Part shown: positions 4,084-40,897 of the stretch, in pieces
How positions within the stretch are numbered: position 1 is the stretch's first letter
Layout: each line of letters opens with the position of its first letter
Source of the DNA: Deltaproteobacteria bacterium
GTDB taxonomy: Bacteria; CG2-30-53-67
Direction: 5' to 3'
DNA length: 42,076 bases
NCBI GenBank assembly: GCA_013151235.1
Contig: JAADIO010000041.1
Span: 1-42,076 of the forward strand
Notes under the pieces: model-generated
Told to the model about the DNA's origin: nothing
The model's database searches: none
What the model saw: the letters and a program-made list of their open reading frames with translations, nothing else
Program-made: the position numbers and the translations under genes

Positions 4084-4147
4084 AAGCTGCTATCCTCATT
4101 ATTCGGTTCGAAGCCGCCGTAGACCAATTCGTCATCATCCGGCAAGT

Positions 4148-6824: not shown

Positions 6825-8345
6825 TTATGCAACCTCCACGGCATCGCGCAAAAGGTCCTGGACGATCCCGCCGTTCCCCGGATATTCGACGACCCGCACC
6901 TTCAGGGTCATAGGGTGAGTCCCCTCCTGCGCCAGTGTATTGTCAAATATGGTTTGCAAGCGTTCGATCAGGTAGCTCATCCCTTCCCCTTCCTCCGGGG
7001 TCATTACCACAAAACTCTCCCCCCCCATGTAGGAGACTACATCGGTGGCCCGGACATTTTCTTCAAAGAATCGTGCAATCCTTTGAAAACACCGTCTCCT
7101 CTCCTCCGGGTCGGAAAAGGCGGAAAGACGGCTCTGCAACCCTTTGAGATCAAAAAGTAGGAGGGCAAAGCTGTGATCACCGTAGCGGTCGCACCGCCGG
7201 ATTTCGTCGATGACCCGTCGGCTCATATATTGAAAACTGGGCAGGCCGGTCTCCCGGTCAACCATGGCCACCTGTTCCGACCGGCGGAGACGTACGGCCA
7301 GTTTCTCTTCGACAAAGCCAAGGGTTTTGAGTGCGAAGAGGATTCCCATGGCAATCAGCGCCAGCATCATCAGAGTGTATTCCGAGGGAATCAGGGTGAG
7401 GACGAAGGCGGTCAGGCCGAGGTGAATACAGAAGAAATAGATCAGGAGGACGACTTTCTTCTCCCGGATACCGAGTCGAACCAGGCGGTGATGGAGATGT
7501 TCCCCGTCGGCGGAGAAGATATTCTTCTTGACCTTGCTTCGACGGATCACGGCCATCAGGGTGTCGAGCACGGGCACCCCGAGCGCAGCGAGGGGGATCA
7601 TGAGGGCCATCATGGTCGCCCCCTTCTGCAATCCCTCAATCCCGACGACAGAGAGGACAAAACCTAAAAACATGCTCCCGGCATCCCCTAAAAAGATCCG
7701 GGCCGGAAAAAAATTATACCGGAGAAATCCGAGGCAACTCCCGGCCAGTACGGCCGTCAGCACCATCCCGGTCAGGTCGCCCCGGTGCCCTGCCACGGCA
7801 AAAAGCGTCAGGGATCCGATGAGGGCGACCCCCGAGGCCAGGCCGTCAAGCCCGTCGATCAGGTTCATGGCATTGACCATGGCCACAACCCAAAGAACGG
7901 TGACGATCCCCCCGGGGACCGGGCCGAGATGAAAATTCCCGCCCAAGGGGTTGGTGAGAAATTCGATTCGGACACCGGCCCAGGCAAGAGAAATCCCGGC
8001 CAGGATCTGCCCCCCCAATTTCCAGCGGGGCCGAAGAGAACGGAAATCGTCGACCAACCCGGTGAACAGGACCAGGGTCCCCCCGCAGAGAAATCCCGTG
8101 ACCGCCTTTTCTTTCATATTCAGGAGATCGGGAAATTTGATCGCCGTAACGAGAAAAACCGCCATGAACCCGGCAAAGATCGCCACACCCCCGAAGTAGG
8201 GGATATTCCGGGCATGGATCTTTCTCCCGCCCGGCCGGTCAACACAGCCGAGCCGCAGGGCAAGATGTCCGGCCACCGGGGTCGTAACAAGAGATGAGAG
8301 CAACGCTCCGGTAAAAAGAAAGAGATAAAAGATCCAGGGGGTCAT
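6825..8345 (-). CDS. MraY/WecA-family undecaprenyl-phosphate sugar-1-phosphate transferase fused to a degenerate GGDEF domain
   Basis: Residues 1-345 form a multi-pass phospho-N-acetylhexosamine transferase that loads the first sugar phosphate onto undecaprenyl phosphate. They show DD (99-100), NLIDGLDGLA (161-170), FLGDAGS (218-224) and HLHHR (283-287). Residues 355-506 are a GGDEF-type domain: it opens with VDRETGLPSFQYM, has FDLKGL at 398-403 and carries GGESF (441-445) where GGDEF is expected. The Glu-to-Ser change should abolish diguanylate cyclase activity. RATD (432-435) lies exactly five residues before the GG, the position of the inhibitory c-di-GMP-binding RxxD site. So the tail may sense c-di-GMP rather than make it. 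The gene is four bases downstream of a GT4 gene and belongs to the exopolysaccharide operon. Confidence 0.9.
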   Translation of the reverse strand: MTPWIFYLFLFTGALLSSLVTTPVAGHLALRLGCVDRPGGRKIHARNIPYFGGVAIFAGFMAVFLVTAIKFPDLLNMKEKAVTGFLCGGTLVLFTGLVDDFRSLRPRWKLGGQILAGISLAWAGVRIEFLTNPLGGNFHLGPVPGGIVTVLWVVAMVNAMNLIDGLDGLASGVALIGSLTLFAVAGHRGDLTGMVLTAVLAGSCLGFLRYNFFPARIFLGDAGSMFLGFVLSVVGIEGLQKGATMMALMIPLAALGVPVLDTLMAVIRRSKVKKNIFSADGEHLHHRLVRLGIREKKVVLLIYFFCIHLGLTAFVLTLIPSEYTLMMLALIAMGILFALKTLGFVEEKLAVRLRRSEQVAMVDRETGLPSFQYMSRRVIDEIRRCDRYGDHSFALLLFDLKGLQSRLSAFSDPEERRRCFQRIARFFEENVRATDVVSYMGGESFVVMTPEEGEGMSYLIERLQTIFDNTLAQEGTHPMTLKVRVVEYPGNGGIVQDLLRDAVEVA

Positions 8346-18528: not shown

Positions 18529-19202
18529 TGAGCTTCCGCCTGATTCTCTTGAGGAACCCAATCATGGGACCGGTCGTCCGTGCCGGTTGCTCCGATCCGA
18601 CGGATGATCTTCGCCGGATTACCGCCCACAAAACTCATCGAAGGGACATCCTTTGTCACCACGGCACCCGCCCCGACCACCGCACCGTCACCAATGGTCA
18701 CCCCGGCCAGCACCATCGCATTCGATGCAATCCATACCCCTTTGCCGATCGTAATCGGCCGACAACGAACGACACGCCTCCTGTCTGCATCGAGACATTC
18801 CATATCATGATAGGGTGTGAGAAGCCGGACGTTGTGTCCGAAGAAAGAATGCGGTCCGATGGTGATCGTCGCCGAGTCATCACAGAAGGTGTTCTGAAGG
18901 GCAACGTGATCCCCCACGATCATGTTCCCCCACAAGAAGCGGAACCCCCGGGCAATCGTTACCTCCCGGCCGACATGAATATTGCGTCTTCGAAAACGGT
19001 GGGACATTGGATAAGTGAGCAATCTTCGAATCCACCCGGATAGTTTCACCCACACCGGCCTTTTGCCGGTGAACGATCGTAACCGGTGCGGACCGAAGCG
19101 TTGGCCGCAACTCCGGCAGATCCGGTCATCCCTTTCGTATTCTTCCATAGGAACCATTTTCGTACTTCCACATACAGGGCAACGATCCATCGTTTTCCTC
19201 AT
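18525..19202 (-). CDS. Left-handed beta-helix acyltransferase with N-terminal zinc ribbon
   Basis: This protein of about 225 residues begins with a small two-CxxC zinc ribbon (CPVCGS ... CRSCGQ, within the first 35 residues). A basic hydrophobic linker follows, then hexapeptide repeats typical of CysE/LacA/NodL-type acyltransferases (NIHVGREVTIARG, MIVGDHVAL, ATITIGPHSFFGHNVRLLTPYHD, VWIASNAMVLAGVTIGDGAVVGAGAVVTKDVP, FVGGNPAKIIRR). It should transfer an acetyl or similar group to a sugar of the polymer; H128-type chemistry of the family is compatible with the TPYHD segment. The start at 19202 overlaps the flippase stop as ATGA. The zinc ribbon in front is unusual for this family. Confidence 0.85.
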   Translation of the reverse strand: MRKTMDRCPVCGSTKMVPMEEYERDDRICRSCGQRFGPHRLRSFTGKRPVWVKLSGWIRRLLTYPMSHRFRRRNIHVGREVTIARGFRFLWGNMIVGDHVALQNTFCDDSATITIGPHSFFGHNVRLLTPYHDMECLDADRRRVVRCRPITIGKGVWIASNAMVLAGVTIGDGAVVGAGAVVTKDVPSMSFVGGNPAKIIRRIGATGTDDRSHDWVPQENQAEAQ

Positions 19203-20644
19203 ACACCGGGGGTCGAAACTTTCGCCGGCAGTAATTGCTGAAGGATGTTCCAATCTTCCCGGTCAAAGGTTCGGAGAAACAGGAGAACAATGACATAAAC
19301 CGTGATTCCAAAAGGGATGGACAACAACAGGCTGTATTCACGAACACCATAAACGGCCATTCCCATCATACTGCTCCCGAGGATCGCCCGGAGCATGAAG
19401 GAGGAAATCTTCGGCACATAAACGTACTGCCGCACGGCCTTGTACGTGAGCGTCACCAGAATCACCTCCGTCAAAACGGTTGCCACACTGGCTCCTATAA
19501 ACCCGTAAAAGGGGATCAGGATCAGGTTCATGACAACATTGACCGCCGCACAGATCACCATATTATAGGTTGTGCAAAGTTGCCGGTTGGCGGAATTCAG
19601 GAGATTCCCGAACATCGCCGTCACAAAAGACAAGGCCAGGGTCCAGCTCAGGATCTTCAGGGCCGATGCCGATGCCGCATAGTCGGCCCCGTAGAGCATA
19701 CCGATAATCGGTTCCGCCAGCACCGCCAGTCCGGTCGCCATGGGGAACCCGATGAGAACGGAGTACTTCAGGGACCGTTCAAAAACTTTCTTCATTTTGT
19801 TCCTGTCCGTCTCGAAATATCTCGCGGTCATCGGGAAGAGGGCCTGGCTCAGCGCACCGGGGAGAAACATCAGGACTAGAACAATGTTATACGCCGCATT
19901 ATAATAACCGACCACGGCCATACCGATCATCTTGGAGAGCATCACGGAATCGACGCGGGCAAAGATACGTACGAAAACACTCCCCATTCCGAACGAACAG
20001 CCCTCCCGGACAATTCTCCACCATTGATTGAGATGGAAGCGGAAAAAGATGATTGTAAACCGGGCCCTCAGGATATAAAAGGTCAACACGAAGTGAATCA
20101 CATTGGCCGCCAGTACGGAAAAACAGAGGCCCACAACCCCATAACCGCTCATCAGAACAATGAGCCCGAAGGTGAGGACCAGTACACTACGCAGGACAGA
20201 GAGGATGGAACCGTATTCCATTCGTTCAAACCCCTGGAATACGGAAACCATGAGACCGCTGAAGGAATGAATCAGGTAGGCGGCTCCGAGGATGTAAACG
20301 ATCCAACGAACTTCCGATCCATATCCGAGGAGCCGGGTAATGAATACGATGACCCCCAAGGTCAGCACGGTATAGACCAGTTTCAACGCAAAGAAATCGG
20401 TCAAAATGGACGAGAGTCCTTCCCGGTCTCTGGCAACATCACGAATCAACAATTTCGTCAGACCGAGATCCGCCCAGACCACCAGGATTTCCAGCAGCGC
20501 TTTCGCAAAGGCGTATTTTCCAAAATCGACGGCCCCGAGTTTTCGAGCCACGTATATAACGAGGACAAAGGAAAGCAGATTGATCAGAAGGATTTCCGCG
20601 GAGAGAAAGGAGGTATTTTTCGCAACGCGTCTTAAGGTACCCAT
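19199..20644 (-). CDS. Wzx-type polysaccharide flippase
   Basis: This 481-residue membrane protein of the MOP/MATE-like oligosaccharide flippase family has about 12-14 hydrophobic helices. It starts MGTLRRVAKNTSFLSAEILL and contains YVARKLGAVDFGKYAFA and the VFQGFERMEYGSI segment typical of repeat-unit translocases. It would move the undecaprenyl-linked repeat unit across the inner membrane for periplasmic polymerisation. The ATG at 20644 is one base after the carbamoyltransferase stop; the longer frame to 20752 would overlap that gene by more than 100 bases. Confidence 0.9.
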   Translation of the reverse strand: MGTLRRVAKNTSFLSAEILLINLLSFVLVIYVARKLGAVDFGKYAFAKALLEILVVWADLGLTKLLIRDVARDREGLSSILTDFFALKLVYTVLTLGVIVFITRLLGYGSEVRWIVYILGAAYLIHSFSGLMVSVFQGFERMEYGSILSVLRSVLVLTFGLIVLMSGYGVVGLCFSVLAANVIHFVLTFYILRARFTIIFFRFHLNQWWRIVREGCSFGMGSVFVRIFARVDSVMLSKMIGMAVVGYYNAAYNIVLVLMFLPGALSQALFPMTARYFETDRNKMKKVFERSLKYSVLIGFPMATGLAVLAEPIIGMLYGADYAASASALKILSWTLALSFVTAMFGNLLNSANRQLCTTYNMVICAAVNVVMNLILIPFYGFIGASVATVLTEVILVTLTYKAVRQYVYVPKISSFMLRAILGSSMMGMAVYGVREYSLLLSIPFGITVYVIVLLFLRTFDREDWNILQQLLPAKVSTPGV

Positions 20645-20645
20645 A

Positions 20646-22355
20646 TCACGACCGGCTCTCCACAATATGGTTTCCCAGCACCAGAACGTCAACGCTGCCG
20701 GCAAGATAGGATCGGATCGCGTCTTCCGGGGAACAGACAATGGGTTCCTCATGCATGTTGAAGCTGGTGTTGATCACAAGAGGCAGTCCGGTGATCCTTT
20801 TGTATTCTGAAATCAACGAATGATATTTCGGGTTGTCCTGCTGCCGGACAACCTGAGGACGGGCCGTACGATCGATATGAGCAACTGCGGGGGCCGTTTC
20901 AACCTTGGAGTCTTTTACATCATAGGTCATGGTCATGAACCTTCCGGCCACATCCGAAGAGGACCATCCCGAATAATATTCTCCGGCATCCTCTTCCAGG
21001 ATGCTCGGGGCAAAAGGCATGAACTCCGTTCGCTTCAGTCTATCATTCAACCAGTCGTTAATCGATTTATCCGTCGGATCCGCAAGAATCGAACGGTTGC
21101 CGAGAGCACGAGGGCCGAATTCCATTCTTCCGGAGAAACGCCCGATAATTTTTTTCTCTTTCAGCAATTCCGCGGTTCTCCTTTCAGGATGTTCCTCATA
21201 TCGATATCGAAGTTGATGTTTTTCAAGCGCCTTGCGGATCTCTTCATCGGTGAACTCCGGGCCGAAATAAACATTCGGCTGGAAGACGGGAAGAGCTCTT
21301 TCCCCTTGACGCAGGGACTCCCGGGCCCAGGCGTTCATCGCAGCACCGAGAGCGAGTCCACTGTCCGACATGGCCGGCTGGACATAGACCCCGTCCACAC
21401 AGTCCAGCTCACGGATTCTCTGGTTCACCTTGACATTGCCGAAAACACCGCCGGAGAGCACGACATTTCGGATCCCGGTCATTTCTACGGCATCCCGAAC
21501 CATATGGGTCACCGTATCTTCCGTCAGTTGTTGAAGCGCCGCGGCGACATCCGCTTTTTGCACTTCATCGAGCAAATCGTCTACAACGGGGATTTCCCAA
21601 TGGTCATAATCTCTTGCCTTGAAAAGGCGGGGAATGTATTCGGAAAAAAAATCATGGCGCCGATCATCATATCGATTGATACGCTTGAACTTTTCATAAC
21701 AGGTCCCGGCATCCCCATAAGCCGCCAGCCCCGTGATTTTTCCTTCATGACGGGACGGCTTAAACCCGAAATGTTTTGTAATAAAGGTATAGAGAATCCC
21801 GGGGGAATAATACCCGTTGAATTCACGAATCTTTTTCAGGCCCCCCTGACGCCCCGCACTCACGGAACCACAGATAGATGAATCACCAATCCCGTCAAGG
21901 GTAATGACGGTCGCATCCTCCCAGGGGCCGGTATAATAGGCGCTCGACGCATGCGCCTCGTGATGATCAACTTCGAAAATCCGTATCCCCTTCAGGAAGT
22001 CCGGCACAACTCTTTTGATCTTTTTTGCGGTCAATAGTGCGTAGAGTATGCGGTTCGGCATGAGGACGCCGGTCTCCCGGTAGGTCTTATAGACATATTG
22101 CAGCATCTTCCGGGATCGGGCAATCGGAGACAAACCGGCCAGCGCAATCACATCGATCTTTTCCACTGCGATCTTCGAGATCCGCAAAACCTCTTTGATG
22201 GAGAGTACCGGGAAAGCACCTTCACACTTTTTCCGCGTCAACCTTTCCTCTGAGACCGCGGCAACCACTTTCCCATCTTTCACCAGGGCCGCACCGCTGT
22301 CATGTGCCTGGGCGGGGCTATCTGCTGAATATCCCCAAATTCCCAACGTGATCAT
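20646..22355 (-). CDS. NodU/TobZ-family O-carbamoyltransferase
   Basis: This 569-residue protein has the two-domain carbamoyltransferase arrangement. A Kae1-like N-terminal part shows AHDSGAALV, EERLTRKK, DHHEAHASSAYY (metal-binding His residues) and TLDGIGD. It continues with LSGGVFGNVKVN and a C-terminal YrdC-like-partner domain with GRMEFGPRALGNRSILADP. These enzymes move the carbamoyl group of carbamoyl phosphate, through an adenylate, to a hydroxyl of a sugar, so a carbamoylated polymer is predicted. The ATG at 22355 has GGAGGG seven bases upstream and overlaps the 3' end of the polymerase gene by 38 bases. Confidence 0.9.
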   Translation of the reverse strand: MITLGIWGYSADSPAQAHDSGAALVKDGKVVAAVSEERLTRKKCEGAFPVLSIKEVLRISKIAVEKIDVIALAGLSPIARSRKMLQYVYKTYRETGVLMPNRILYALLTAKKIKRVVPDFLKGIRIFEVDHHEAHASSAYYTGPWEDATVITLDGIGDSSICGSVSAGRQGGLKKIREFNGYYSPGILYTFITKHFGFKPSRHEGKITGLAAYGDAGTCYEKFKRINRYDDRRHDFFSEYIPRLFKARDYDHWEIPVVDDLLDEVQKADVAAALQQLTEDTVTHMVRDAVEMTGIRNVVLSGGVFGNVKVNQRIRELDCVDGVYVQPAMSDSGLALGAAMNAWARESLRQGERALPVFQPNVYFGPEFTDEEIRKALEKHQLRYRYEEHPERRTAELLKEKKIIGRFSGRMEFGPRALGNRSILADPTDKSINDWLNDRLKRTEFMPFAPSILEEDAGEYYSGWSSSDVAGRFMTMTYDVKDSKVETAPAVAHIDRTARPQVVRQQDNPKYHSLISEYKRITGLPLVINTSFNMHEEPIVCSPEDAIRSYLAGSVDVLVLGNHIVESRS

Positions 22356-23730
22356 TTTGTGTCCCTCCGACGGAATTGTCCCGGTTTTCAGTGGAATTTT
22401 TTTCAATAAAAGATAACTGAATCACCAAGCCCACCAGAAACCAGAACGGCTCCATGATCCGGACAATGATGAACGTATTGGCCCCGATCGCATGAACAAA
22501 CATGGCCGAACATCCGGCCAGCATCCCCAGCGCCAACCCTTTGGAATAGTCGGACCGACTCTTGCGATAGGCCGACAGAACCTCCCGGAAGAGTACGAGA
22601 AAGAGATACAGGAGGGCAGCAAGCCCTACGAGCCCGAGTTCCACCAACGTCCTGAAATACTGACCGTCGATGAAACCGTATCCGGTGATGCCATAGCCGA
22701 AAAGGGGATGATGGACGAAATCTTTCAGACATTGTTTCCAGCTCTTGACACGGGCCGATGTGGATGGATCCAGCGTCACCCCTTCGACCTGAATCGAATA
22801 GCGCCGGTTTCTTTCAAAGGTATAATGAAACCGTTCCTTGGCACTTTTCGGCGCAAGCAGCGGCGTCAATGCAATTGCCAGTACCGTAAAATAGATCAGC
22901 ACAGTCCTCCGGCGGCTGAAAAAGAGGAAGGTCCCCACCATCGGAATCATGGCGATCCAGGAACTTCGGGAAAGGGTATAGATGAAAGGAATGGTAAAGA
23001 GTGCCGCCAGACCGAGATAAACGGCCTTTTTCTTCTGGGTCCGGACGGTCAGAAAAAACCCGCCGCAAAGGGAAATCAGCAGCAGAAGATATCCGCCGAG
23101 GGTGTTCGGTTCTCCGTTCGCTCCCTCGAAGGGGGCGGACACACGAACACCCGAAGGGATCTGCATCATCCCGTATATGGAAATAAGAACACCCGTGACG
23201 AGGATCGCTGTAACGAACCGGCGCATCTGCGCTTCATCCCTGACATAATTGACGACCAGGAAATAGACGACAAAGTATTCGAGGTACTTCAGAACATAGA
23301 AGAACCCGCTCAAGGGGCGCACCCGTCCGAAAAAAACGCCCAAGAGGGTGGAGAAGGCACAGATGGCGGCATAGAGAAAGAGGGCATGGTTGATCGGGGT
23401 CTTCCGGATCAGCCCCATCTCCTTGAAGAGCGCGGTCCGGGCAAACCAGGAGAGCCCGATAATCACGAGGAGAATATCCTCCACCCGAAGCACCACTTCA
23501 TGACCTGAGCTACCGGCGACCTTGATTTCCGGAGAAAGGAGCATGGAGAAAATCAAGAGATAGAGGGCCGCCTCGATCCTGAGAATCGAGATCACAACGA
23601 TGGCAAAACCGACCGCCATCTTGAGAGCCGTCGCCGTTTCAACCCGGGAGAGGGTTTGAGTCGTTACCACGGCCAGCAGGAAAAGAATAACGTAGAAGAG
23701 ATTGACTTTTGTCCGGTTCGACAGGATCAT
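22318..23730 (-). CDS. O-antigen ligase/Wzy-type polymerase
   Basis: This 470-residue membrane protein has about 11-12 hydrophobic helices and a large periplasmic loop near residues 300-365. The family segment HHPLFGYGITGYGFIDGQYFRTLVELG marks the Wzy_C/O-antigen ligase domain. In a locus with flippase, Wzc and Wza it most likely polymerises repeat units; a ligase role cannot be excluded. The gap to the Wzc gene (23731-23868) is 138 bases and holds only low-complexity GGGTTCAGGGTTCAAAGTTC-like sequence. Confidence 0.88.
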   Translation of the reverse strand: MILSNRTKVNLFYVILFLLAVVTTQTLSRVETATALKMAVGFAIVVISILRIEAALYLLIFSMLLSPEIKVAGSSGHEVVLRVEDILLVIIGLSWFARTALFKEMGLIRKTPINHALFLYAAICAFSTLLGVFFGRVRPLSGFFYVLKYLEYFVVYFLVVNYVRDEAQMRRFVTAILVTGVLISIYGMMQIPSGVRVSAPFEGANGEPNTLGGYLLLLISLCGGFFLTVRTQKKKAVYLGLAALFTIPFIYTLSRSSWIAMIPMVGTFLFFSRRRTVLIYFTVLAIALTPLLAPKSAKERFHYTFERNRRYSIQVEGVTLDPSTSARVKSWKQCLKDFVHHPLFGYGITGYGFIDGQYFRTLVELGLVGLAALLYLFLVLFREVLSAYRKSRSDYSKGLALGMLAGCSAMFVHAIGANTFIIVRIMEPFWFLVGLVIQLSFIEKNSTENRDNSVGGTQNDHVGNLGIFSR

Positions 23731-23868: not shown

Positions 23869-26199
23869 TCACGACTGCTGCCAGAACATCCCCATCAGAA
23901 TCAAAAGAGCTGAAATCGTCAACAGGAAAAACTGGAACAGGGACACATGACTTTTCATCACCTTTAGCCTGGCACGCTGCAGCGATTTCTCCAAGCTCTC
24001 CAGCCACGCCTTCTTCCGGTCTTTTGCTTTACTTTCTTCTCCGTAGTATTTGGTCTGATACTGGGAGAGTGGATAATAACCGCTGATCTCGGCCGTAATG
24101 TCGTTTAAAACAATCCCTAAAACATTGGCCCGGACATTCTCCAGGTGCGTCTTGGCCCGTTTCAGGGCATTTCTCGGGATCCGGCCTGCCTGATAAACCA
24201 GGACCACTCCATCGACCTGGGGCGCGAGAATCGCGGCATCGGTGACCGGCAGGATCGGCGGACAGTCCATCAGGACGATATCATACTCTTTGCGAGCCTC
24301 TTTCATGAAATCGGTCATTCCCCTGGAACTGAGAAGTTCCGCCGGGTTGGGAGGGATCCCGCCGCAGGTCAGGATATGAAGGTTCTCCAGACCGGGAGTT
24401 CGCATGATATCATCCATATGGATCTTTCCCATCATCAGATCTGAAATATCCTTGACCGCCTCTCTCCAGGGGGTCTTTCCGAGAATCACGTCGGTCATCC
24501 CCGGATCTTTCGTCACACCGAAGATCTTGAAGATGGACGGCTTCCGGAGATCGCAGTTCACCAGCAAAACCTTGTTTCCCTCCTGGGCCTTGGTAATCGC
24601 CAGATTGGCCACGGTGGTACTCTTCCCTTCTTTTAAGGAGGAACTGGTAAAAAGAATCACCTGGCCCTTCTTCTTCAGGTTGGTAAACTGGATATTCGTC
24701 CGAAGGGTCCGGTAACTCTCCGCTACGGAAGACTTGGGTTTCAGCTGGGTGATCAGGTGGGCATGGCTCCCGAAAAGATCCTCCAACCGGGTTTCCTTGT
24801 CTTTGTTCTTGAGCAAGGTCTCTTTGATCTCGTTCACATCAATGTGCGGGATAACCCCGAGAACCGGGATCTGGAGATACCGCTCCACATCCTCAATGGT
24901 CCCGATAGAAGTATCAAGCGTTTCCCGGACCAGCGCCAGAACGAGTCCTATCATCAGCCCGATGATCAGCCCCACGAAGGTCGTGGACCAGAGCTTGTCG
25001 TTAATCCGGACGCCCCGGTCAGCCGAGCGGATCACGGTGACCTCGTCGGAGTGTTCCTTCTCCCGAATCTGTGCCTCCTGGAGCTTGGTCTGCAACAACG
25101 AATAGAGTTCTTCGTTTACCTTCACGTTTCGCTGAAGCCGGCTCAATTCGATCTCGTACTCTGGCAGTGTCTTGTTCCGTTCCTGCACGGCCGCCACCTG
25201 TTCTTTCAGGAGCTTTTCCCGCTGCGAATAGACCTCGTATTGATTGCGCAGTTCCCGAAGCATTTCCCTCTTGACATCCATGATCTTTTCGTCCAGGGCC
25301 TTGACCTGCGGATGTTCCGTCGTGTAATCGATGAGCAGATTGTTCCGGTTCAGAATCAGATCAACGAGTTTGCTGTTCAACTGGGCCAGGATGCTATTGC
25401 CGGTTTCAATATAGGGACGATCGGAAAGCATATCCCCCAGCGTGGCGATGGACAACTTCTCCAGCCGTTTGATCATCCTCTCCGTTTCGTCGGTCTTACG
25501 CTTTACGGTTTCCAGTTGTGTCCCGACCGTCTCCAGCTTATCCAGGGTCATCCGCACCTCACCATCAAGGGAGACCACTTTATTCTTCTCTTTGAAGTCC
25601 CGCAGGTACCCTTCCGCCGTCCTCAGTTTACGACGAGTATCCAATAGCTGATTCTGGATGAATTCACGGGTCCGTCTGGCCTCATCGGTCCGGCGATAGA
25701 CATGATAGGACCGGTATTCTTCAACGAGGGCGTTCGCAATCCGCTTCGATTGTTCGGCATCATCAGAGGAGACAATGACGTTGATAATGTTCGTATCCCC
25801 TTCCTGTTCCGTCCGGATCTGCCTTTGGACCTTACGCAATACGCCAAGGTAACGATCCGAGGCCTGGATCTCCTTCAGGGTCAGATCCTGCGGGATCAGG
25901 CCCAGAACCTTGCAGGCCCGGGCCACCACCGGGGTACTCTTGATTACCTCGGATTCACTGGCGATGTTATCCCAGGAGTTCCAGCTCAAGGTCTCAAGAA
26001 AAAGGCCGGCCACGGTACGGCTCTGCTCAATCTTGACGCTTGAAGTAGCCTCATAGATTGCAGGTTTCGTCACGGCGAAGAAAAAGCTCAACAGGGCAAT
26101 GAGCAGGGTCGTCATCACGATGAGGCGCTTCCGCTTCAGGAGAATAATCCCGTAATCTCTCAGGTCGAGTTCGTACTGCGAAGTATCGATGGATTTCAT
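23869..26199 (-). CDS. Wzz-Wzc polysaccharide co-polymerase and BY-kinase tyrosine autokinase
   Basis: This 776-residue protein has an N-terminal Wzz domain with a first membrane helix (about 25-42), long coiled coils (170-400) and a second helix (405-424), joined to a cytoplasmic bacterial tyrosine kinase. Kinase motifs are Walker A SSSLKEGKST (519-528), Walker A' LLVNCD (545-550, with Asn where Asp is usual in the first position) and Walker B IVLMDCPP (641-648). Tyrosines cluster at 708, 709, 714, 718 and 719. The tail does not end there as in most such kinases: a third hydrophobic helix follows (about 752-772). It would control chain length and export through phosphorylation cycles with the Wza protein encoded just upstream, 42 bases away. 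Confidence 0.93.
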   Translation of the reverse strand: MKSIDTSQYELDLRDYGIILLKRKRLIVMTTLLIALLSFFFAVTKPAIYEATSSVKIEQSRTVAGLFLETLSWNSWDNIASESEVIKSTPVVARACKVLGLIPQDLTLKEIQASDRYLGVLRKVQRQIRTEQEGDTNIINVIVSSDDAEQSKRIANALVEEYRSYHVYRRTDEARRTREFIQNQLLDTRRKLRTAEGYLRDFKEKNKVVSLDGEVRMTLDKLETVGTQLETVKRKTDETERMIKRLEKLSIATLGDMLSDRPYIETGNSILAQLNSKLVDLILNRNNLLIDYTTEHPQVKALDEKIMDVKREMLRELRNQYEVYSQREKLLKEQVAAVQERNKTLPEYEIELSRLQRNVKVNEELYSLLQTKLQEAQIREKEHSDEVTVIRSADRGVRINDKLWSTTFVGLIIGLMIGLVLALVRETLDTSIGTIEDVERYLQIPVLGVIPHIDVNEIKETLLKNKDKETRLEDLFGSHAHLITQLKPKSSVAESYRTLRTNIQFTNLKKKGQVILFTSSSLKEGKSTTVANLAITKAQEGNKVLLVNCDLRKPSIFKIFGVTKDPGMTDVILGKTPWREAVKDISDLMMGKIHMDDIMRTPGLENLHILTCGGIPPNPAELLSSRGMTDFMKEARKEYDIVLMDCPPILPVTDAAILAPQVDGVVLVYQAGRIPRNALKRAKTHLENVRANVLGIVLNDITAEISGYYPLSQYQTKYYGEESKAKDRKKAWLESLEKSLQRARLKVMKSHVSLFQFFLLTISALLILMGMFWQQS

Positions 26200-26241: not shown

Positions 26242-28767
26242 TTATTTCGTCAGGGTTCGAACACCCTTTCTATTCAGGTCGATTGTTGTACGCAGGGCCT
26301 CGAAGTTATAGGGAAAGAGTACTAAATCGAGGGCCGGCCTAACCTGTTGCAGGAAATGGCTCAAACCTGCAATCTTCGTTCTGGGCACATAGATGATATC
26401 ATTGTTCCGGAGTGTCAGATTGTCGGAAAGGTCCCCCGTCCGGAAAAAATGCTTGAGATTCACAGGGATCACCTCCGGTCGGGAGATATCTCCCCGAATG
26501 AGCCGCACGCTCTGTACCACGGCATCCTTGGTGAAACTTCCGGCCTGCCCGACGGCTTCAAGAACGTTCATCCCCTCTTTCAGGTCGAAGACCCCGGGAT
26601 TCTTCACCTCACCGAAGACAAAGACCTTGCTGACCCCCGCGGAGGTTTCCGGGATAAAAATCGAGTCCCCCGGATAGACGGGAATATTCTGGGAGAGGTC
26701 GGACTGAAAGATCGCTTTATAGAGATTGACGTAGAGGGTCGTGCCGTTCTTCCGGGTCACGGCAATCTTTTTCAGGTTCGCCGTCGGTTTCGGCCCGCCT
26801 GCAAGAGTCACCAGCTCCACAATCCGGGTCGGTTTTGTCAGGGTATAGATCCCCGGACCGGTCGGTTGTCGGACCAGGGAGTTGATGGCACCGAGAAGGA
26901 TCACCTCCTGACTGTGATGTTCCTTGATGAGAATATCGACGCGGGGGTGCTTGAAATATCGGCTTAATTGCTTCGTCAGCAGATGGTCCAGCTCCGTAAT
27001 CGTCAGCCCGGAAACCTTCAGATCGTCCACCATGGAAAAAGAGAGGGTCCCATCCGGACGGACCGGCACCTCATACTCGTCGGCGCTGAACTGCTTCCAG
27101 AAAGTGATCTTCAGTATATCTCCGGGACCGATCCGGTATTCATTCAGCATCTGATTCTTTTGGAATTCCTTCTGTTTCTTCCGGTCCTCTTCGCCGGGCG
27201 CCAGTCCGTCATCCACGCTGCGCAGATGTGTCACCACCACATCAACACGGCGGTTGGTCACCCCCTTGGCCCGAAGGGCCGCGCTCACCGGTTTCCCGTC
27301 GGCAAAACCGACCGTCGAGATCCGGGAGGACGGAATGGAAACTCTCCCTGCCAACAGGTCCCGGACCGCATCGGCCCGCTTCCTGGAAAGGGCCATGAGG
27401 GAACTCCCGTCGACAACCGATTCGCCGGTCTGGGCATGCCCCTCGATTCGGATACTCTCCACGCTCGGGGAAATCCGGATCAGATGAATCAGTTCCGCCA
27501 GGACGCTCTGTCCGGCGTCGGTGATCTCTATCCCTGTTGTTTTGAAGGGGATCCCGAACCGGGTAATTGCCCGGTAGGGCTTGACCGGATGTTCCGGCTC
27601 CGCAGCGACCGTGGGTCCGGCGGCATGCGCGCCCGTGTGTCGGCCGCCTAACCAGACCTGGACTCCTTCACTGTAGCTTGCCGCGACCAGATCCCGGTTC
27701 CCGTCGCCGTCCACATCGGCTACGGCCAGTCCGTAATAGGAACCTCCCTCCGGCAACTGTCCCTGAGAAAGGAGCCACCCCCCCGCACGGGAGGCAAGCC
27801 AGAGCCGGACACCCCGGGAGTTCACCGAGGTCGCTGCAAGATCCATCCGGCCATCGCGATTAAAGTCAGCCGCATCGACATCCCAGAAAAATCCCCGGTT
27901 CACGGGAAAAACGGCATCCTCCCAACCGCCCTGCCCGTTTCCGTACCAGACGCGTATCCCATGATAATAGGTGGTCGCCGCAATATCGATACGGCCGTCT
28001 CCATTCAGGTCCGCCGCCGTGACCCCCCAGAAATCCCCTTCCTTCGCCGGGGAGGGGAAGGCCGACCAAGCCCCGTCCCCGCTGCCCAGGAAGATCCGGA
28101 TCCCGCCCGGATGACCCCAGGTTGTCCCCACCAGATCGAGTCTCCCATCACCGTTCAAGTCGGTCACAGCAACATCCCGGTAGATATGGGCGGCATCGGG
28201 ACCGATTTCCGCGGTCCAGTTCCCGCGACCGTCCCCCAGCCAGACCTGGAGCCCGCCGTTCTCTTCGCCGGAGCTGTTGGCGCCGATAATATCGAGATGC
28301 CCGTCATGGTTTATGTCAACACATTTCAGGGCATTGTAGCTCCCCAGATCGGCAGGGGAGTTCCCTTTCCACCAGGTGCCGTCTTTTTTCTGAAGGAAGA
28401 CGACCACCCCTTTTAAATCCTGCTGTCCACCGATTATCATATCCAGCCGACCATCACTGTTCAGGTCTCCCAGTGCAATCGCCCGCACATCACCGCTCAC
28501 GGCAGGCCCCCGGGAAGCACGCCACTTACCGTTGCCGTCTCCCATCCAGAGGGCAATCCCGCCGGGGAGAAAGGAACCGGCGGCAAGATCAACAACTCCG
28601 TCACTATTGATGTCCCCCTGCACGACACAATGAAAGTGCCCGGCATGGATGGGGCCGGTTTCCTGCGACCAGAGGAGGGTCTTTCCCGACCCGCTCCCGA
28701 TCGCGGCACAACCCGCAAGAAGCAGGCAGAAAACACAGAACAAACTCACGGCAAGACGACTCACCAT
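26242..28767 (-). CDS. Wza-type export lipoprotein fused to an FG-GAP beta-propeller and an OmpA-like domain
   Basis: This 841-residue lipoprotein (LLLAGC, Cys20) has three parts. Residues about 45-375 hold seven FG-GAP/VCBS repeats with calcium-type DxNxDGxxDL loops near 52, 101, 151, 203, 253, 301 and 351, each followed by WLGDGxGxW-like strands; seven blades fit a closed propeller. Residues about 400-514 are an OmpA-C-like peptidoglycan-binding domain (IRIEGHAQTG, LSRKRADAVRDLL, GVTNRRVDVVV). Residues about 543-830 are a polysaccharide-export domain with SLBB repeats (YRIGPGDILKITFW, GEVKNPGVFDL) and an amphipathic C-terminal helix (FLQQVRPALDLVLF). The usual Wza is about 350-380 residues. 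It is the first gene of the operon, with GGAGA seven bases upstream of the ATG. Confidence 0.93.
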   Translation of the reverse strand: MVSRLAVSLFCVFCLLLAGCAAIGSGSGKTLLWSQETGPIHAGHFHCVVQGDINSDGVVDLAAGSFLPGGIALWMGDGNGKWRASRGPAVSGDVRAIALGDLNSDGRLDMIIGGQQDLKGVVVFLQKKDGTWWKGNSPADLGSYNALKCVDINHDGHLDIIGANSSGEENGGLQVWLGDGRGNWTAEIGPDAAHIYRDVAVTDLNGDGRLDLVGTTWGHPGGIRIFLGSGDGAWSAFPSPAKEGDFWGVTAADLNGDGRIDIAATTYYHGIRVWYGNGQGGWEDAVFPVNRGFFWDVDAADFNRDGRMDLAATSVNSRGVRLWLASRAGGWLLSQGQLPEGGSYYGLAVADVDGDGNRDLVAASYSEGVQVWLGGRHTGAHAAGPTVAAEPEHPVKPYRAITRFGIPFKTTGIEITDAGQSVLAELIHLIRISPSVESIRIEGHAQTGESVVDGSSLMALSRKRADAVRDLLAGRVSIPSSRISTVGFADGKPVSAALRAKGVTNRRVDVVVTHLRSVDDGLAPGEEDRKKQKEFQKNQMLNEYRIGPGDILKITFWKQFSADEYEVPVRPDGTLSFSMVDDLKVSGLTITELDHLLTKQLSRYFKHPRVDILIKEHHSQEVILLGAINSLVRQPTGPGIYTLTKPTRIVELVTLAGGPKPTANLKKIAVTRKNGTTLYVNLYKAIFQSDLSQNIPVYPGDSIFIPETSAGVSKVFVFGEVKNPGVFDLKEGMNVLEAVGQAGSFTKDAVVQSVRLIRGDISRPEVIPVNLKHFFRTGDLSDNLTLRNNDIIYVPRTKIAGLSHFLQQVRPALDLVLFPYNFEALRTTIDLNRKGVRTLTK

Positions 28768-28827: not shown

Positions 28828-28855
28828 ATTCTATCATAGACCCTCAACCTGTCAA
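28828..28855 (-). promoter_or_regulatory. Candidate sigma-70 promoter of the polysaccharide export operon
   Basis: On the minus strand a perfect TTGACA (28855-28850) lies 16 bases before TAGAAT (28833-28828). Transcription would start near 28821, giving a leader of about 54 bases that includes the GGAGA site of the Wza fusion gene. It could drive the whole run from 28767 towards 14026. Confidence 0.65.
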
Positions 28856-29106: not shown

Positions 29107-29943
29107 ATGAAGAAAGTGAATATCTTCCATCTCGTTCTGACCACGCTGATCATTCTCTTCGTGGCGGATATCTCCATGAAGATAATCAACAGCCGTCTTG
29201 ATCTAGACCTGCCGGAACAGACCACAAAGAAACCGACCTTCTCCGGGGAAAAAACCGTGAAACCCTTTTCCGCCTTCTCCCGAATCGCCGAACGGAAACT
29301 CTTTGAGAAACCGGCTCCTCCCGATACGGAGAAAAACAACCAAGAGGAGGATCTCTCCGATCATCCGCTGACAAACCTGAAGTTGATTCTCAAGGGGACT
29401 GTCGTCAGCACGAAAGGCAACTCCTTTGCCGTTATCGAGGACGAAAAATTGCGATCCCAGGACCTCTATCATATCAATGACAGCATCAGCAGCGGCGTCA
29501 CGATCGCCTCGATCCTGAACGACCGTGTGGTCATCAATCGGAACGGTAACAAGGAATTGCTCCTCATGTTCCAGGAGGACAAAAAAGGTCGTCATACACC
29601 TGCACGATCCGATCGACAAGCCGCGTCGCCGCTGGTCATCAAAAAATCGGAAATCCGGGAGGCCGTCACCGATCTGCGCTCCATCATGCGGGATGTGCGT
29701 ATCATTCCTCACTTCGCATCGGGGAAACGGGACGGATTCACCGTGACTTATGTCCGGAGGGGAAGCCGGCTCGCGGAACTCGGCCTGCTCCGAAACGACA
29801 TTATCAAGGACATCAACGGTACCCCGGCCGGCAATTTCAAGAACATCTTCGAGATCTTCAATAAATACGCCGATTCGGACAGTCTGGATCTCGGGATTGA
29901 ACGAAATAATGAATACATGAACATCAGTTACACACTGGAATAA
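29107..29943 (+). CDS. gspC: Type II secretion system protein C
   Basis: This 278-residue inner-membrane protein has a short cytoplasmic tail and one helix (about 9-27). A periplasmic HR domain follows (LKLILKGTVVSTKGNSFAVIEDEK...), then a linker and a C-terminal PDZ domain (VRRGSRLAELGLLRNDIIKDINGTPAGNFKNIFEIF). GspC links the inner-membrane platform (GspL/GspM) to the periplasmic N0 domain of the secretin GspD, encoded next. The first gene of the operon; the 66-base gap to gspD contains a good ribosome site (AGGAGCGGAGA). Confidence 0.93.
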   Translation: MKKVNIFHLVLTTLIILFVADISMKIINSRLDLDLPEQTTKKPTFSGEKTVKPFSAFSRIAERKLFEKPAPPDTEKNNQEEDLSDHPLTNLKLILKGTVVSTKGNSFAVIEDEKLRSQDLYHINDSISSGVTIASILNDRVVINRNGNKELLLMFQEDKKGRHTPARSDRQAASPLVIKKSEIREAVTDLRSIMRDVRIIPHFASGKRDGFTVTYVRRGSRLAELGLLRNDIIKDINGTPAGNFKNIFEIFNKYADSDSLDLGIERNNEYMNISYTLE

Positions 29944-30009
29944 GACAGCCGGCACAGCTCACAGCAATCGCAAAAATCGGGACTCACTATTGACAATCAG
30001 GAGCGGAGA

Positions 30010-32205
30010 ATGAACTTAAAAGGGACAAGAACTTTTTTCTACACGGTTCTGTTGGTCAGCATGATAATCCTCCCATGGGTCCGGACTCCGGTTGTCTCGG
30101 CCGAAGAACTGATCACCATGAATTTCGAAGATGCCGATATACGGATTCTGATCAAATTTATCAGTGAAATCACCCAGAAAAACTTTATTATCGACGACAA
30201 AGTCAAGGGGAAGGTGACCATCATCTCGCCGGAGAAGGTAACCATCCCCGAGGCCTACAACGTCTTCGAATCCATTCTGGATCTGAAGGGATTCACCCTG
30301 ATCCCTGCGGGTCAGGTCATCAAAATCGTCCCCAGTTCCGAGGCCAAGCAGCGGGGCATTCAAACGATTGTAGGCAAGGTTTCCGATCTCGGCGACCGGA
30401 AGGATGAATTCGTTACCCGGATCACCCGGCTGCGGTACGTCAATGCCGATGAGATTGCGACCCTGATTCGTCCCCTCTTCTCCAAGTACGGGAATCTCAT
30501 CCCCTACAAGGAGACGAACACTTTGATCATGACCGACATCAAATCGAACCTGCACCGGATCATGTCCATCATCAATCAACTCGATGTCAAGGGATACCAT
30601 GCAGAGCTCTACGTCATTCCCCTGCATTATGCCTCGGTCAGAACAATCTCGGACCATCTGAACAAGATTCTTGAACAGGGAGGAGCGGGTCTTCGGACCT
30701 CCTCGATTCGCAGGGTCCCTAACCGGCGCCGAAGGTCATTGACCGCGGGGACGGCATCATCCGTCTCGGGCGTCTCCACCTCGGCCAAGATTATCTCCGA
30801 CGAACGGACCAACTCCCTGATCGTCCTGGCCACGAAGAACGACTACGAAACCATTACCAAGCTCGTCGAAAGACTTGATGTCAAAGCCCCCTCCGGAACG
30901 GGACGGGTCAACATCTACTATCTTCAGAACGCCATCGCCGAAGAGGTCGTTGCCGTTCTCAACAAATTCATCACCGGCATCAATGCAGAAAAACAGAAAA
31001 AGGGAGGCCGGGGAGGCACCCGGCTTCCCAGCGAAACGGATATCAAAATCGTTGCCGACAAGGCGACCAATTCCCTCATCATTGATGCCAACCCCCAGGA
31101 TTACAAACAGATCAAGGACGTCATCGAGAAGCTCGACATTCCTCGTGCCCAGGTCCTGATCGAGGCCCTGATCATGGAGGTGCGGGGGAATGACACGATC
31201 TCCGTCGGTGTCGACTGGGAGACCCTTGGCGGGAAGATCGGGAAAGACGACTCCATTGATCGCCTTGGTTTCGGCGGCTCCATGGTGCAGGGAGATCTGG
31301 GGACAACGATCGCCGCTATTAATGCGGGAACCGCTCCTCCGCTGACCGGATTCAACCTCGGGGTCTTCGGAAATTTTATCGAATTCAACGGTCAGAAATT
31401 TCCTACGATCTCCGCCCTGATCAAGGCCGTGGCCAGCCGGTCCGATACGGATATCCTCTCAACCCCCCAGATCCTGACCATGGACAACGAGGAGGCAGAG
31501 ATCAAGGTCGGCGAGAACCGCCCCTTCCTGACCCAGGCCCGGACCGGCGGACAGGGTGTTAATGATGTTTTCCAGACATTCGACTTCCGCGATGTCGGCG
31601 TCACCATGAAGGTGACCCCCCACATCAGCCAGAATGGTTTCGTCCGGTTGAAGCTTTTCCAGGAAATCTCCAACGTCAATGCCCAGGCCACGGAAGGGAC
31701 GGGCGCCACGGCACCGGTCACGACGAAACGGTCCGCCGATACAACCGTTACGGTTCAGAACGGCCACACGATCGTTATCGGCGGGCTGATCGGGAATGAT
31801 GTCACGCAAACGGAGAGCAAGGTCCCCTGTCTGGGCGACCTGCCCTGGATCAAGTATCTCTTTCGTTCGACACGCACGGAAAAGACCAAAACAAACCTGA
31901 TGATCTTTCTCACTCCTCACATCATCATGAACCCCACGGAGGCGGCCCAACTTTCCGAATTGAAGGATCACGAGTTTAAAAAGTACCAGAAGAAAGACGC
32001 CCCGATGGAGCCCAGCAAACATTTTTACGGCCCGGAAGGAACCGCACCGAAGGAAAGTACCACACCGGCCCGGAAGGTGGCCGAGCCAACGGACAAAGCT
32101 GTCCTGCACAGGACCCCCCATCCAACCCCTTCCCCGGCACAGACCCGTCCGGAACCCCGGAAGGACCCGACACCGGAAGAAACACTCCCGGAAGGAAGCA
32201 AATGA
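30010..32205 (+). CDS. gspD: Type II secretion system secretin
   Basis: This 731-residue protein has a Sec signal ending near ...VVSA-EE (about residue 31), then an N0 domain (ITMNFEDADIRILIKFISEITQ), N1-N3 ring domains each ending in conserved TNSLIV/TNSLII segments, and the secretin core (VLIEALIMEVRG, GENRPFLT, VGVTMKVTPHIS, TTVTVQNGHTIVIGGLI, LGDLPWIKYLF). It assembles the outer-membrane channel. The C-terminal 70 residues are Pro/Thr/Lys-rich (PHPTPSPAQTRPEPRKDPTP) instead of a clear pilotin-binding S-domain; no pilotin gene is seen here. Its stop overlaps the gspE start (ATGA). Confidence 0.95.
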   Translation: MNLKGTRTFFYTVLLVSMIILPWVRTPVVSAEELITMNFEDADIRILIKFISEITQKNFIIDDKVKGKVTIISPEKVTIPEAYNVFESILDLKGFTLIPAGQVIKIVPSSEAKQRGIQTIVGKVSDLGDRKDEFVTRITRLRYVNADEIATLIRPLFSKYGNLIPYKETNTLIMTDIKSNLHRIMSIINQLDVKGYHAELYVIPLHYASVRTISDHLNKILEQGGAGLRTSSIRRVPNRRRRSLTAGTASSVSGVSTSAKIISDERTNSLIVLATKNDYETITKLVERLDVKAPSGTGRVNIYYLQNAIAEEVVAVLNKFITGINAEKQKKGGRGGTRLPSETDIKIVADKATNSLIIDANPQDYKQIKDVIEKLDIPRAQVLIEALIMEVRGNDTISVGVDWETLGGKIGKDDSIDRLGFGGSMVQGDLGTTIAAINAGTAPPLTGFNLGVFGNFIEFNGQKFPTISALIKAVASRSDTDILSTPQILTMDNEEAEIKVGENRPFLTQARTGGQGVNDVFQTFDFRDVGVTMKVTPHISQNGFVRLKLFQEISNVNAQATEGTGATAPVTTKRSADTTVTVQNGHTIVIGGLIGNDVTQTESKVPCLGDLPWIKYLFRSTRTEKTKTNLMIFLTPHIIMNPTEAAQLSELKDHEFKKYQKKDAPMEPSKHFYGPEGTAPKESTTPARKVAEPTDKAVLHRTPHPTPSPAQTRPEPRKDPTPEETLPEGSK

Positions 32206-33749
32206 TGAACCCGCAGAACAAAAGCATCGGGATGCCCCTTTTGAAGAAAATCCCGGAACCTCAGTTGAGCGAAGAGACACTGAATCGAATCCCCCGCAGT
32301 TATCTCAAACGTTTCCTCCTCTTTCCCTTTTTCGAGGACGACAGCGGAGTCCGGGTGGCGATTTCCGACCCGGCGAACATGGCCCCGCTGTACGACCTGG
32401 GCAAATTACTGCTCAAGCATGTCGAACCCTACACAGCCACGGAGGAGGAGATCAACCGGAGCATCAACCTCTACTTCGGAAGTGCCACCGATACGGCCGA
32501 GCGGGTCATCGACGATCTCTCGGGGGAGGAATTCGAAAATATTGCCGAAGAGTTGGAAGAGGTGCAGGATCTCCTCGATGCCGAAACCGAGGCGCCGATC
32601 ATCAAACTGATCAACCTGATCCTCTACCAGGCCGTAGAGTCCCGGGCCAGCGATATCCATCTCGAACCCTATGAAAAGGACATGCTGGTCCGATACCGGA
32701 TCGACGGTGTCCTCTACGAACGGCTCCAGCCTCCGAAAAAATTTCAGTCTGCTCTGATCTCCCGGATCAAGATCATGGCGAACCTCAACATCGCCGAGAA
32801 ACGTCTCCCTCAGGACGGCCGGATCAAGATCAAGATCGCGAACAAAGAAGTCGACATACGGGTCTCTATCATCCCCACCGCCTTCGGGGAACGTGTCGTT
32901 TTGAGGCTCCTGGACAAGAATGCCACGATCTTCGACCTCGAAGATATCGGCCTCGTGGACCGGAACTATAAACTCTTTTCCCGCATGATCCGGAAGAGTC
33001 ACGGCATCATCTTAGTCTCCGGACCGACGGGAAGCGGGAAAAGCACAAGTCTCTACGCCGCGCTGAACAAGATCAATTCCCCCGACAAAAACATCCTCAC
33101 CATCGAGGATCCGATCGAATACCAGATCAAGGGAATCGGACAGATCCAGGCCAATCCGAAGATCGACCTGACCTTTGCCAGGGGACTCCGGTCCATTCTC
33201 CGCCAGGACCCGGACGTCATCATGATCGGAGAAATCCGGGACTTGGAGACGGCGGAAATCGCCATCCAGGCCTCACTGACAGGACATCTTGTCTTTTCCA
33301 CACTCCACACCAACGATGCCGCCGGAGCGATCACCCGGTTGACCGATATGGGGATCGAGCCCTTTCTCGTTTCCTCCTCAATTCTCGGGATCATGGCCCA
33401 GCGCCTGGTCCGGGTGATCTGCCCGATCTGTAAAGTCTCCTACAAACCGACCCGGGCCGAATTAGAGGAGCTGGGCCTGGATCCGGATCGTGTGAAAAAT
33501 CCGGTTTTTTCACACGGAAAAGGATGCGATCAATGCCTTGAAACCGGATATCACGGAAGGACCGGGATCTATGAACTGATGGTGGCAAACGACAACATCA
33601 ACAAACTAATTATGCAGAATGCAGACTCAAACCGGATCAAGGAAAAATCGGTTCAAAACGGAATGCGAACCCTTCGGGAAGACGGCGCCTATAAGGTCCT
33701 GCAAGGGATCACCACCATTGAAGAGGTCCTTCGGGTCACGCAGGAGTAG
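32202..33749 (+). CDS. gspE: Type II secretion system assembly ATPase
   Basis: This 515-residue cytoplasmic hexameric ATPase powers pseudopilus assembly. The N1E-type domain binds GspL. The core has ASDIHLEPYE (149-158), Walker A GPTGSGKST (274-282), an Asp box with LTIEDPIEY, Walker B VIMIGEIRD and a His box (TGHLVFSTLHTNDA). The four-cysteine zinc motif is intact (CPIC ... CDQC). The start is ATG 32202 or 32205; GGAAGG lies upstream inside gspD. Downstream is an unusually long noncoding gap before gspF. Confidence 0.95.
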   Translation: MMNPQNKSIGMPLLKKIPEPQLSEETLNRIPRSYLKRFLLFPFFEDDSGVRVAISDPANMAPLYDLGKLLLKHVEPYTATEEEINRSINLYFGSATDTAERVIDDLSGEEFENIAEELEEVQDLLDAETEAPIIKLINLILYQAVESRASDIHLEPYEKDMLVRYRIDGVLYERLQPPKKFQSALISRIKIMANLNIAEKRLPQDGRIKIKIANKEVDIRVSIIPTAFGERVVLRLLDKNATIFDLEDIGLVDRNYKLFSRMIRKSHGIILVSGPTGSGKSTSLYAALNKINSPDKNILTIEDPIEYQIKGIGQIQANPKIDLTFARGLRSILRQDPDVIMIGEIRDLETAEIAIQASLTGHLVFSTLHTNDAAGAITRLTDMGIEPFLVSSSILGIMAQRLVRVICPICKVSYKPTRAELEELGLDPDRVKNPVFSHGKGCDQCLETGYHGRTGIYELMVANDNINKLIMQNADSNRIKEKSVQNGMRTLREDGAYKVLQGITTIEEVLRVTQE

Positions 33750-33815
33750 GAACAGAAACCAGAAATCAGGAATTAGAAACTGGGGATCAGCAATCGGCAG
33801 CCGGCAACAACCGGC

Positions 33816-33861
33816 AATTTCCGTCTCAAATTCTTTAGATGCAAGGCGCTCGATTTTTGAG
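33816..33861 (+). repeat. Partial copy of the element at 34119-34241
   Basis: The sequence ATTTCCGTCTCAAATTCTTT continuing through AGATGCAAGGCG and CGATTTTTGAG matches the left end of the 34119 element with a few substitutions. The rest of the element is absent, so this is a truncated, older insertion. Confidence 0.75.
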
Positions 33862-33976
33862 TTTGATGATTAACGTGGGAATTACCCAAGGCTTTACGAA
33901 AAGATCCGATCGCCCCGCGCGAAGGTTTTGAGGAGTAATGAAGAACGGTTGGTCATCTTTATTGGGTAACAAACAT

Positions 33977-34111
33977 TGATGAAGTCGTAAAAAGTCCGTT
34001 CGACCCTTCGACACGCTCAGGGCGAACGGTGTAAGTCATTGATATTCCGTTCGTGGTGAGCTTGTCGAACCATGAACGGAATCCGAAAAACGACTTTTTA
34101 CGACACCATCA
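33977..34111. repeat. Nested palindromic repeat (MITE-like) with GTCGTAAAAAGTC ends
   Basis: The left end TGATGAAGTCGTAAAAAGTC (33977-33996) is almost the reverse complement of the right end (34092-34111). Inside are a CCGTTCG/CGAACGG pair around CCCTTCGACACGCTCAGGG and a 14-base near-perfect stem ATTCCGTTCGTGGT/ACCATGAACGGAAT (34044-34082). From memory, repeats with these ends are widespread in Desulfobacterota and related genomes; a genome-wide search would confirm copy number. Confidence 0.8.
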
Positions 34112-34118
34112 AACATTA

Positions 34119-34241
34119 AATTCCGTTTCAAATGCTTCAGATGCAAGGCGCGCGATTTTTGAGGAATGAGGCGTACATTTTGTACGCTGCAGTGACGAGG
34201 AAATCGCAGCAACGCCGCAGATGAAGTATTTGAGACGGAAT
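34119..34241. repeat. About 120-base hairpin-forming palindromic element
   Basis: ATTCCGTTTCAAATGCTTCA at the left pairs with TGAAGTATTTGAGACGGAAT at the right; the arms continue inwards imperfectly to a perfect central hairpin GCGTACA-TTT-TGTACGC (34171-34187). The element ends about ten bases before the gspF ATG, so the gspF ribosome-binding region borders or falls in the hairpin. Confidence 0.8.
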
Positions 34242-34251
34242 CAAAGAGCCT

Positions 34252-35469: not shown

Positions 35470-35487
35470 TGAAACAGGAGGTTGCCC

Positions 35488-35922
35488 ATGCTCGACCGGA
35501 AAGGCTTTACCTTAATCGAACTGTTAGTGGTCCTGGTCATTCTTTCGATCCTGGCCACCATTATCGGTCCCAAACTCTTCGGCCGGACGGAAGAGGCCCG
35601 GAGGACCGCCGCTATGGTGCAGATCCGGAATATTGAAAGCGCACTGGCCCTTTATGAACGGGACAACGGAAGTTTTCCCACGACTGAACAGGGCCTCAAA
35701 GCCCTTGTTGAAAAACCGTCGGGCGATCCGGTCCCCCCAAACTGGCACGAGGGAGGATACCTGGACAAAGGGAAGGTCCCGCTCGACCCTTGGCACAATC
35801 CCTATGTCTACCTCTCCCCCGGTGTCCACAGCAAGGAATATGATCTGGAATCCTATGGGGCGGATGGGGAAGACGGCGGCGAAGGGAAGTATGCGGATAT
35901 CGAAAGCTGGAACCTGGAATAA
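35488..35922 (+). CDS. gspG: Major pseudopilin
   Basis: This 144-residue prepilin has leader MLDRKG, cut before FTLIELLVVLVILSILA (Glu5 present). The C-terminal calcium loop (YGADGEDGGEGKYADIESW) is typical of GspG, as is NGSFPTTEQGLKALV. It forms the shaft of the pseudopilus. I chose ATG 35488, six bases after AGGAGG, over an in-frame TTG at 35482. No prepilin peptidase gene is present in this window. Confidence 0.95.
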   Translation: MLDRKGFTLIELLVVLVILSILATIIGPKLFGRTEEARRTAAMVQIRNIESALALYERDNGSFPTTEQGLKALVEKPSGDPVPPNWHEGGYLDKGKVPLDPWHNPYVYLSPGVHSKEYDLESYGADGEDGGEGKYADIESWNLE

Positions 35923-38481: not shown

Positions 38482-38490
38482 AGAGCGGAT

Positions 38491-40032: not shown

Positions 40033-40090
40033 CGGGATTCTCCTGAAAGGGACGAAATGGCATTGCACCTGTTATCACGGCGGGAATTCG

Positions 40091-40852: not shown

Positions 40853-40897
40853 CGGCAACCGGGCCGTCCGGTAAAACATTCAGAAAGTGATCTATCC

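Follow-up and report, generated by a model that had tools for sequence, protein, structure and literature searches.

A Wza-type exporter lipoprotein with a predicted seven-bladed propeller and an OmpA-like domain at its N-terminus, one apparent form of a modular exporter family

The window analysed here, the 42,076 nt contig JAADIO010000041.1 of a Deltaproteobacteria bacterium (GCA_013151235.1), encodes a propeller-OmpA-OPX (Wza-type) exporter lipoprotein of 841 aa, read from an ATG start at 26242..28767 on the minus strand and recognized from Pfam matches and relatives. Comparison with these relatives indicates that the fused exporter is real rather than an assembly error and belongs as one form to a modular family, in which the propeller appears to be the constant extra and the OmpA-like domain the variable one. 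We consider it probable that the protein is an OPX lipoprotein of the Wza type, part of a Wzx/Wzy-type cluster, whose N-terminus has acquired the propeller and, in the branch of the window, the OmpA-like domain, and that the propellers act as a docking collar.

The order of propeller, OmpA-like domain and exporter within one lipoprotein, as put forward in the original prediction, is confirmed by the Pfam layout and the lipobox. A signal peptide (residues 1–20; 28708..28767, on the minus strand like all features of this gene) ends, by sequence pattern, in the lipobox LAGC at residues 17–20, with Cys20 as the predicted lipidated residue; a lipoprotein signal is common, if not universal, in OPX/Wza proteins, and the other exporters of the window's family carry the lipoboxes LLGC, FPGC, AAGC and VGGC, with lipoboxes also found in the more distant relatives G157, G334 and G203. 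The FG-GAP/VCBS-type propeller (residues 22–381; 27625..28704), assigned from Pfam, motif and model, is matched above the gathering scores by FG-GAP_3 (E 3.5e-45) and FG-GAP (E 4.2e-25). It is followed by the OmpA-like domain (residues 404–513; 27229..27558), assigned from Pfam and alignment and matched at 408–497 (E 3.6e-10, 40.5 bits against a cut-off of 27.2), and by Poly_export (PES, D1; residues 542–614; 26926..27144; E 5.5e-19, 68.6 bits against a cut-off of 28), for which Pfam, PDB matches and hhalign agree. Two SLBB stretches after Poly_export (E 3.2e-21, above the gathering score, ending at about 794) are placed by Pfam and hhalign with approximate bounds at residues 615–711 (26635..26925) and 712–797 (26377..26634), and the C-terminal segment (residues 798–841; 26245..26376) aligns partially with the region of E. 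coli Wza that contains its membrane-spanning helix. Upstream of the gene, a promoter-like TTGACA-16-TAGAAT (28828..28855, minus strand) agrees with the consensus at 11/12 positions, a match by consensus only.

The seven calcium loops with a regular spacing of about 50 residues that had been claimed for the N-terminal part are present as seven Dx[DN]xDGxxD motifs at residues 52, 101, 151, 203, 253, 301 and 351, giving spacings of 49-50-52-50-48-50. That they form a closed seven-bladed propeller, as was also proposed, is likely from the predicted model of residues 25–381, in which AlphaFold places 28 strands, that is 7 × 4 (pTM 0.72, pLDDT 64); the input comprised two sequences only and the five models range in pLDDT from 30 to 64, so that confidence in the model is moderate, and a full-length prediction from three sequences reached pLDDT 30. 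A Foldseek search with the propeller model returned the EPTP domain of LGI1 (TMq 0.75), with CRTAC1 and bacterial PLL lectins also matching, and among proteins of solved structure CRTAC1 also comes closest to the propeller family in sequence (E 1.4e-11). Integrin alpha, PilY1, the P. velutina lectin and CRTAC1 carry, like the exporter propeller, Dx[DN]xDG loops on the blades of a seven-bladed fold, but these integrin-type 'calcium blade' propellers differ in not being fused to polysaccharide exporters.

The C-terminal half is, as claimed, an exporter of the Wza type, with Poly_export and two SLBB domains colinear with E. coli Wza (hhalign probability 99.2%, 263 columns, reaching residue 364 of 379 of Wza), and Wza chains in the PDB match residues 471–816 (best E 4.5e-25). 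Three OPX classes have been defined by what comes after the SLBB domains, class 1 by homology to at least 10 of the 34 residues of the outer-membrane-spanning Wza_C (PMC9603273). The alignment covers about 19 of the 34 Wza_C residues in the window exporter, while Pfam does not report Wza_C there; with Wza_C undetected by Pfam, the exporter might need a separate partner β-barrel, as in class 3. GfcC, the mark of class 2, has no Pfam match in the protein. With E. coli Wza (class 1; PF02563-SLBB-SLBB-Wza_C) the window exporter shares its lipoprotein nature, Poly_export, the two SLBB domains and a gene near a Wzc-type kinase in a Wzx/Wzy-type cluster; it differs in some 500 extra N-terminal residues, the propeller and OmpA, between lipid anchor and Poly_export, in the merely partial alignment of Wza_C and in belonging to another branch of the exporter tree. 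In class 2C/2D OPX proteins GfcC stands ahead of Poly_export (Saidi et al., 2022; PMC9603273), the place taken in the window by the propeller and OmpA. Additions on the N-terminal side of OPX exporters recur: TPR and AMIN domains precede Poly_export in exporters of about 825 aa of another lineage (L053 of G100, in which the domains were scanned, and L055 of G367). The window's genome also holds a second, short OPX protein in a 214-residue frame (L002, G000:C26:6803-7282), from which at least two export pathways are probable.

The fusion is present in 6/6 genomes examined from the window's family, which span three genera; in four of these the exporter is one uninterrupted frame and in two it lies as two halves at contig ends. 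Identity of the exporter within the family is 57–60% between genera and 79–90% to sister species, and the same fused architecture recurs in other phyla at 35–37% identity. The alternative of an assembly artefact or chimera, which draws on the fact that the genomes are draft assemblies, was thus checked against independent copies of the fused frame and is refuted by them: the same architecture at 57–79% identity within the family excludes both chance and mis-assembly, and we regard such an artefact as extremely improbable. A genome scan with peptide patterns found the sister MAG Dive96_bin10.193 as its sole match, and in two genomes of the same class from another family the best matches were long multi-SLBB exporters rather than the fusion.

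In a wider architecture search of 386 genomes, the full propeller-OmpA-exporter order was found outside the window's family in G157 (853 aa), in G334 (876 aa) and, split over contigs, in the G334 sister G203, which together represent two phyla besides that of the window. A propeller-exporter lacking OmpA occurs in two further phyla (G144, 789 aa; G221, 764 aa), the G144-type form being common to several genomes of its phylum, and one of these two phyla also contains an OmpA-exporter lacking the propeller (G080 and G350). The designation 'triple fusion' therefore holds for the window protein but not as the sole form of the family, in which either OmpA or the propeller is sometimes absent. Few genomes were sampled in each of the four non-window phyla with fused forms, and the phylum of G035, with zero matches at E 1e-48 in 195 genomes, shows that the distribution is patchy. 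Plasmid records gave no match covering 80% of the query, those listed being separate FG-GAP proteins and ordinary Wza, and a scan of viral contigs with the propeller profile gave distant FG-GAP matches only. A tree built from 42 exporter modules unites E. coli Wza with plain exporters in a group supported at 99/99 that contains none of the fused forms, and joins the window clade to the G157 clade at 98/93. Its deep branches are weak, and five changes account for the presence or absence of propeller and OmpA on it; the extension may have arisen once with later losses or have been transferred between lineages.

The propellers of these exporters, from five phyla of the sample, are homologous as judged from their sequences. 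The loop spacing of the window exporter recurs in the complete members of its family and is nearly retained in G334 (49-50-54-50-48-50), G144 (49-51-52-50-48-49) and G221 (47-50-56-51-48-50). Blade-to-blade scores were best at register offset 0 in every other seven-loop member compared (for example 104 against at most 73 when shifted in G334, and 76 against at most 57 in G144), and two FG-GAP control proteins preferred no register. Such near-identical spacing and blade-by-blade similarity point to one common propeller throughout the fused exporters, and the spacing and register tests rule out that each phylum recruited its FG-GAP repeats separately. Exporter propellers score at least 184 bits, against about 103 for the best free-standing FG-GAP proteins among the matches listed. 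Between the window and the other genera the propeller is 58–61% identical, the exporter core 64–79% and OmpA 30–38%.

The genes that follow the exporter place it in a polysaccharide pathway. The next gene encodes a Wzc-type polysaccharide co-polymerase with a tyrosine-kinase domain (PCP-BYK; 23869..26199, minus strand), and the third member of the conserved trio is a Wzy_C membrane protein of the O-antigen polymerase/ligase type (22318..23730, minus strand); this order is kept in 6/6 genomes of the window's family. PCP-BYK likewise follows the exporter in G334, G203, G144, G221, G080, G350, G055 and G094, with a Wzy_C protein a short distance further on in G144, G221, G080, G350 and G055; G157 has the fused exporter, with no recognized Wzc homologue within the stretch read. 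Together with glycosyltransferases, a Wzx-type flippase (Polysacc_synt; 19199..20752, minus strand) and a WecA-like initiating sugar-phosphate transferase with a C-terminal GGDEF-type domain (6825..8345, minus strand) complete the window cluster, and the presence of Wzx beside the Wzc and Wzy_C neighbours assigns the exporter to a Wzx/Wzy-type pathway.

An octameric ring in the outer membrane that exports polysaccharide characterizes the OPX/Wza family. Wza is anchored by its lipid on the inner side of this membrane, from where an N-terminal strand runs down to Poly_export, followed by the SLBB rings and a C-terminal helix. An extension inserted between lipid and Poly_export would, given this structure, be periplasmic, outside the ring and close to the outer membrane. 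We propose that the lipid-anchored chain holds the propeller and OmpA in the periplasm just beneath the outer membrane, with the export ring, built from the Poly_export/SLBB part, standing over the adjacent Wzc-type kinase and the C-terminal segment extending into the outer membrane region. Some eight propellers, one per ring subunit, would then encircle the ring as a rigid collar on which a partner (Wzc, the envelope) or the polymer could dock, with the OmpA-like domain as a secondary and variable contact that may have lost the ability to hold peptidoglycan. A rigid docking collar would be the most economical role for the propeller.

An extension that serves mainly as envelope anchor, with OmpA on the peptidoglycan and the propeller as a rigid spacer so that the exporter is held between wall and outer membrane, could be argued from the OmpA match above gathering score and from the OPX lineage of G100 with AMIN and TPR before Poly_export. 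OmpA-like domains bind diaminopimelate (DAP) through Asp271 and Arg286, in the numbering of A. baumannii OmpA (PMC12108004). Also in favour of an anchor, the Arg of this site is retained in the alignment in 11/11 fused proteins with an OmpA domain, and the window exporter resembles OprF, Acinetobacter OmpA and MotS in the family-level sequence match and the conserved LSxxRA Arg. Unlike in peptidoglycan-binding OmpA-like domains, however, the Asp is not conserved among the fused exporters: only G004, G334 and G203 have it, and its place is taken by Gln in the window, by Glu in G001 and G157, by Ser in G003 and G005 and by Gly in G002, G080 and G350, so that the window's domain has the Arg of the DAP-binding pair and lacks the Asp. 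OmpA is moreover the least conserved and fastest-changing domain of the exporter and is lost in G144 and G221, where the propeller remains. The replaced Asp, the fast change and these losses leave the wall anchoring that had been proposed for the window protein unsupported; such anchoring is doubtful from these alignments, weak or altered peptidoglycan binding by its OmpA-like domain is possible, and we hold an extension that is mainly an anchor to be unlikely. The case cautions against taking an OmpA match as wall anchoring.

The propeller might alternatively, and attractively, read the substrate as a lectin would, binding the polymer of the cluster at the periplasmic mouth to select, retain or pace it. 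This propeller subfamily rides on a sugar exporter, the lectin of Psathyrella velutina is a calcium-blade propeller that binds sugar (PMC3123361), and the fold matches include the seven-bladed bacterial lectins PLL of Photorhabdus and BP39L of Burkholderia (TMq 0.65–0.72). Identity of the model to these lectins is nevertheless 16–18%, many non-sugar propellers match it equally well or better, and the sugar genes behind the exporter vary among relatives while the propeller stays similar throughout; we judge substrate reading an improbable main role. More speculatively, and in our estimate quite improbably, the family would be a widespread OPX subclass in which an outer-membrane propeller ring forms a calcium-dependent, polymer-recognizing collar or gate that confers substrate selection. 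The docking collar remains our preferred reading.

The propeller-bearing exporter appears to be an undescribed variant within the OPX/Wza family. The original prediction knew of no described protein with this domain order, and no published account was found in the open-licence literature, neither for FG-GAP/VCBS with Poly_export nor for OmpA with Poly_export, although domain databases may list them uncommented; for Wza with a β-propeller, the sole matching paper appeared unrelated. The survey of OPX proteins scanned the Poly_export, SLBB, Wza_C and GfcC models only, and the word 'OmpA' is absent from its text (PMC9603273). The fused exporters constitute a recurring kind of OPX protein, set by a large ordered N-terminal module and found in five phyla of the sample, and offer a testable case of whether a Wza-type channel can bear a domain that recognizes its substrate or a partner.

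Some further features of these loci may be recorded. Free-standing FG-GAP propeller lipoproteins are encoded in the relatives G005 and G003 (L170:5813-7108 and L171:5230-6714, both minus strand); they are 37–39% like the exporter propeller, and none of the polysaccharide genes of the window has a homologue beside them in the stretch read. Genes for type II secretion, gspC among them, occupy 29107–41851 of the window on the plus strand, divergent from the exporter, and gspC-D-E-F lie upstream and divergent in those genomes of the family whose contig spans that side. The GGDEF-type domain of the WecA-like transferase scores 39.8 bits and reads GGESF in place of GG[DE]EF, and may be a sensor, either c-di-GMP-linked or degenerate, that acts where the pathway begins. 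At 2048–5053 (minus strand) a DprE2-like SDR, a DprE1-like FAD oxidase and a UbiA-type decaprenyl-phosphate phosphoribosyltransferase, scoring below the equivalog cut-offs, resemble the mycobacterial decaprenyl-phosphate arabinose route and hint at arabinofuranose in the polymer, while a NodU-type carbamoyltransferase beside the Wzy_C gene (20646–22406, minus strand) suggests that the polymer contains a carbamoylated sugar.
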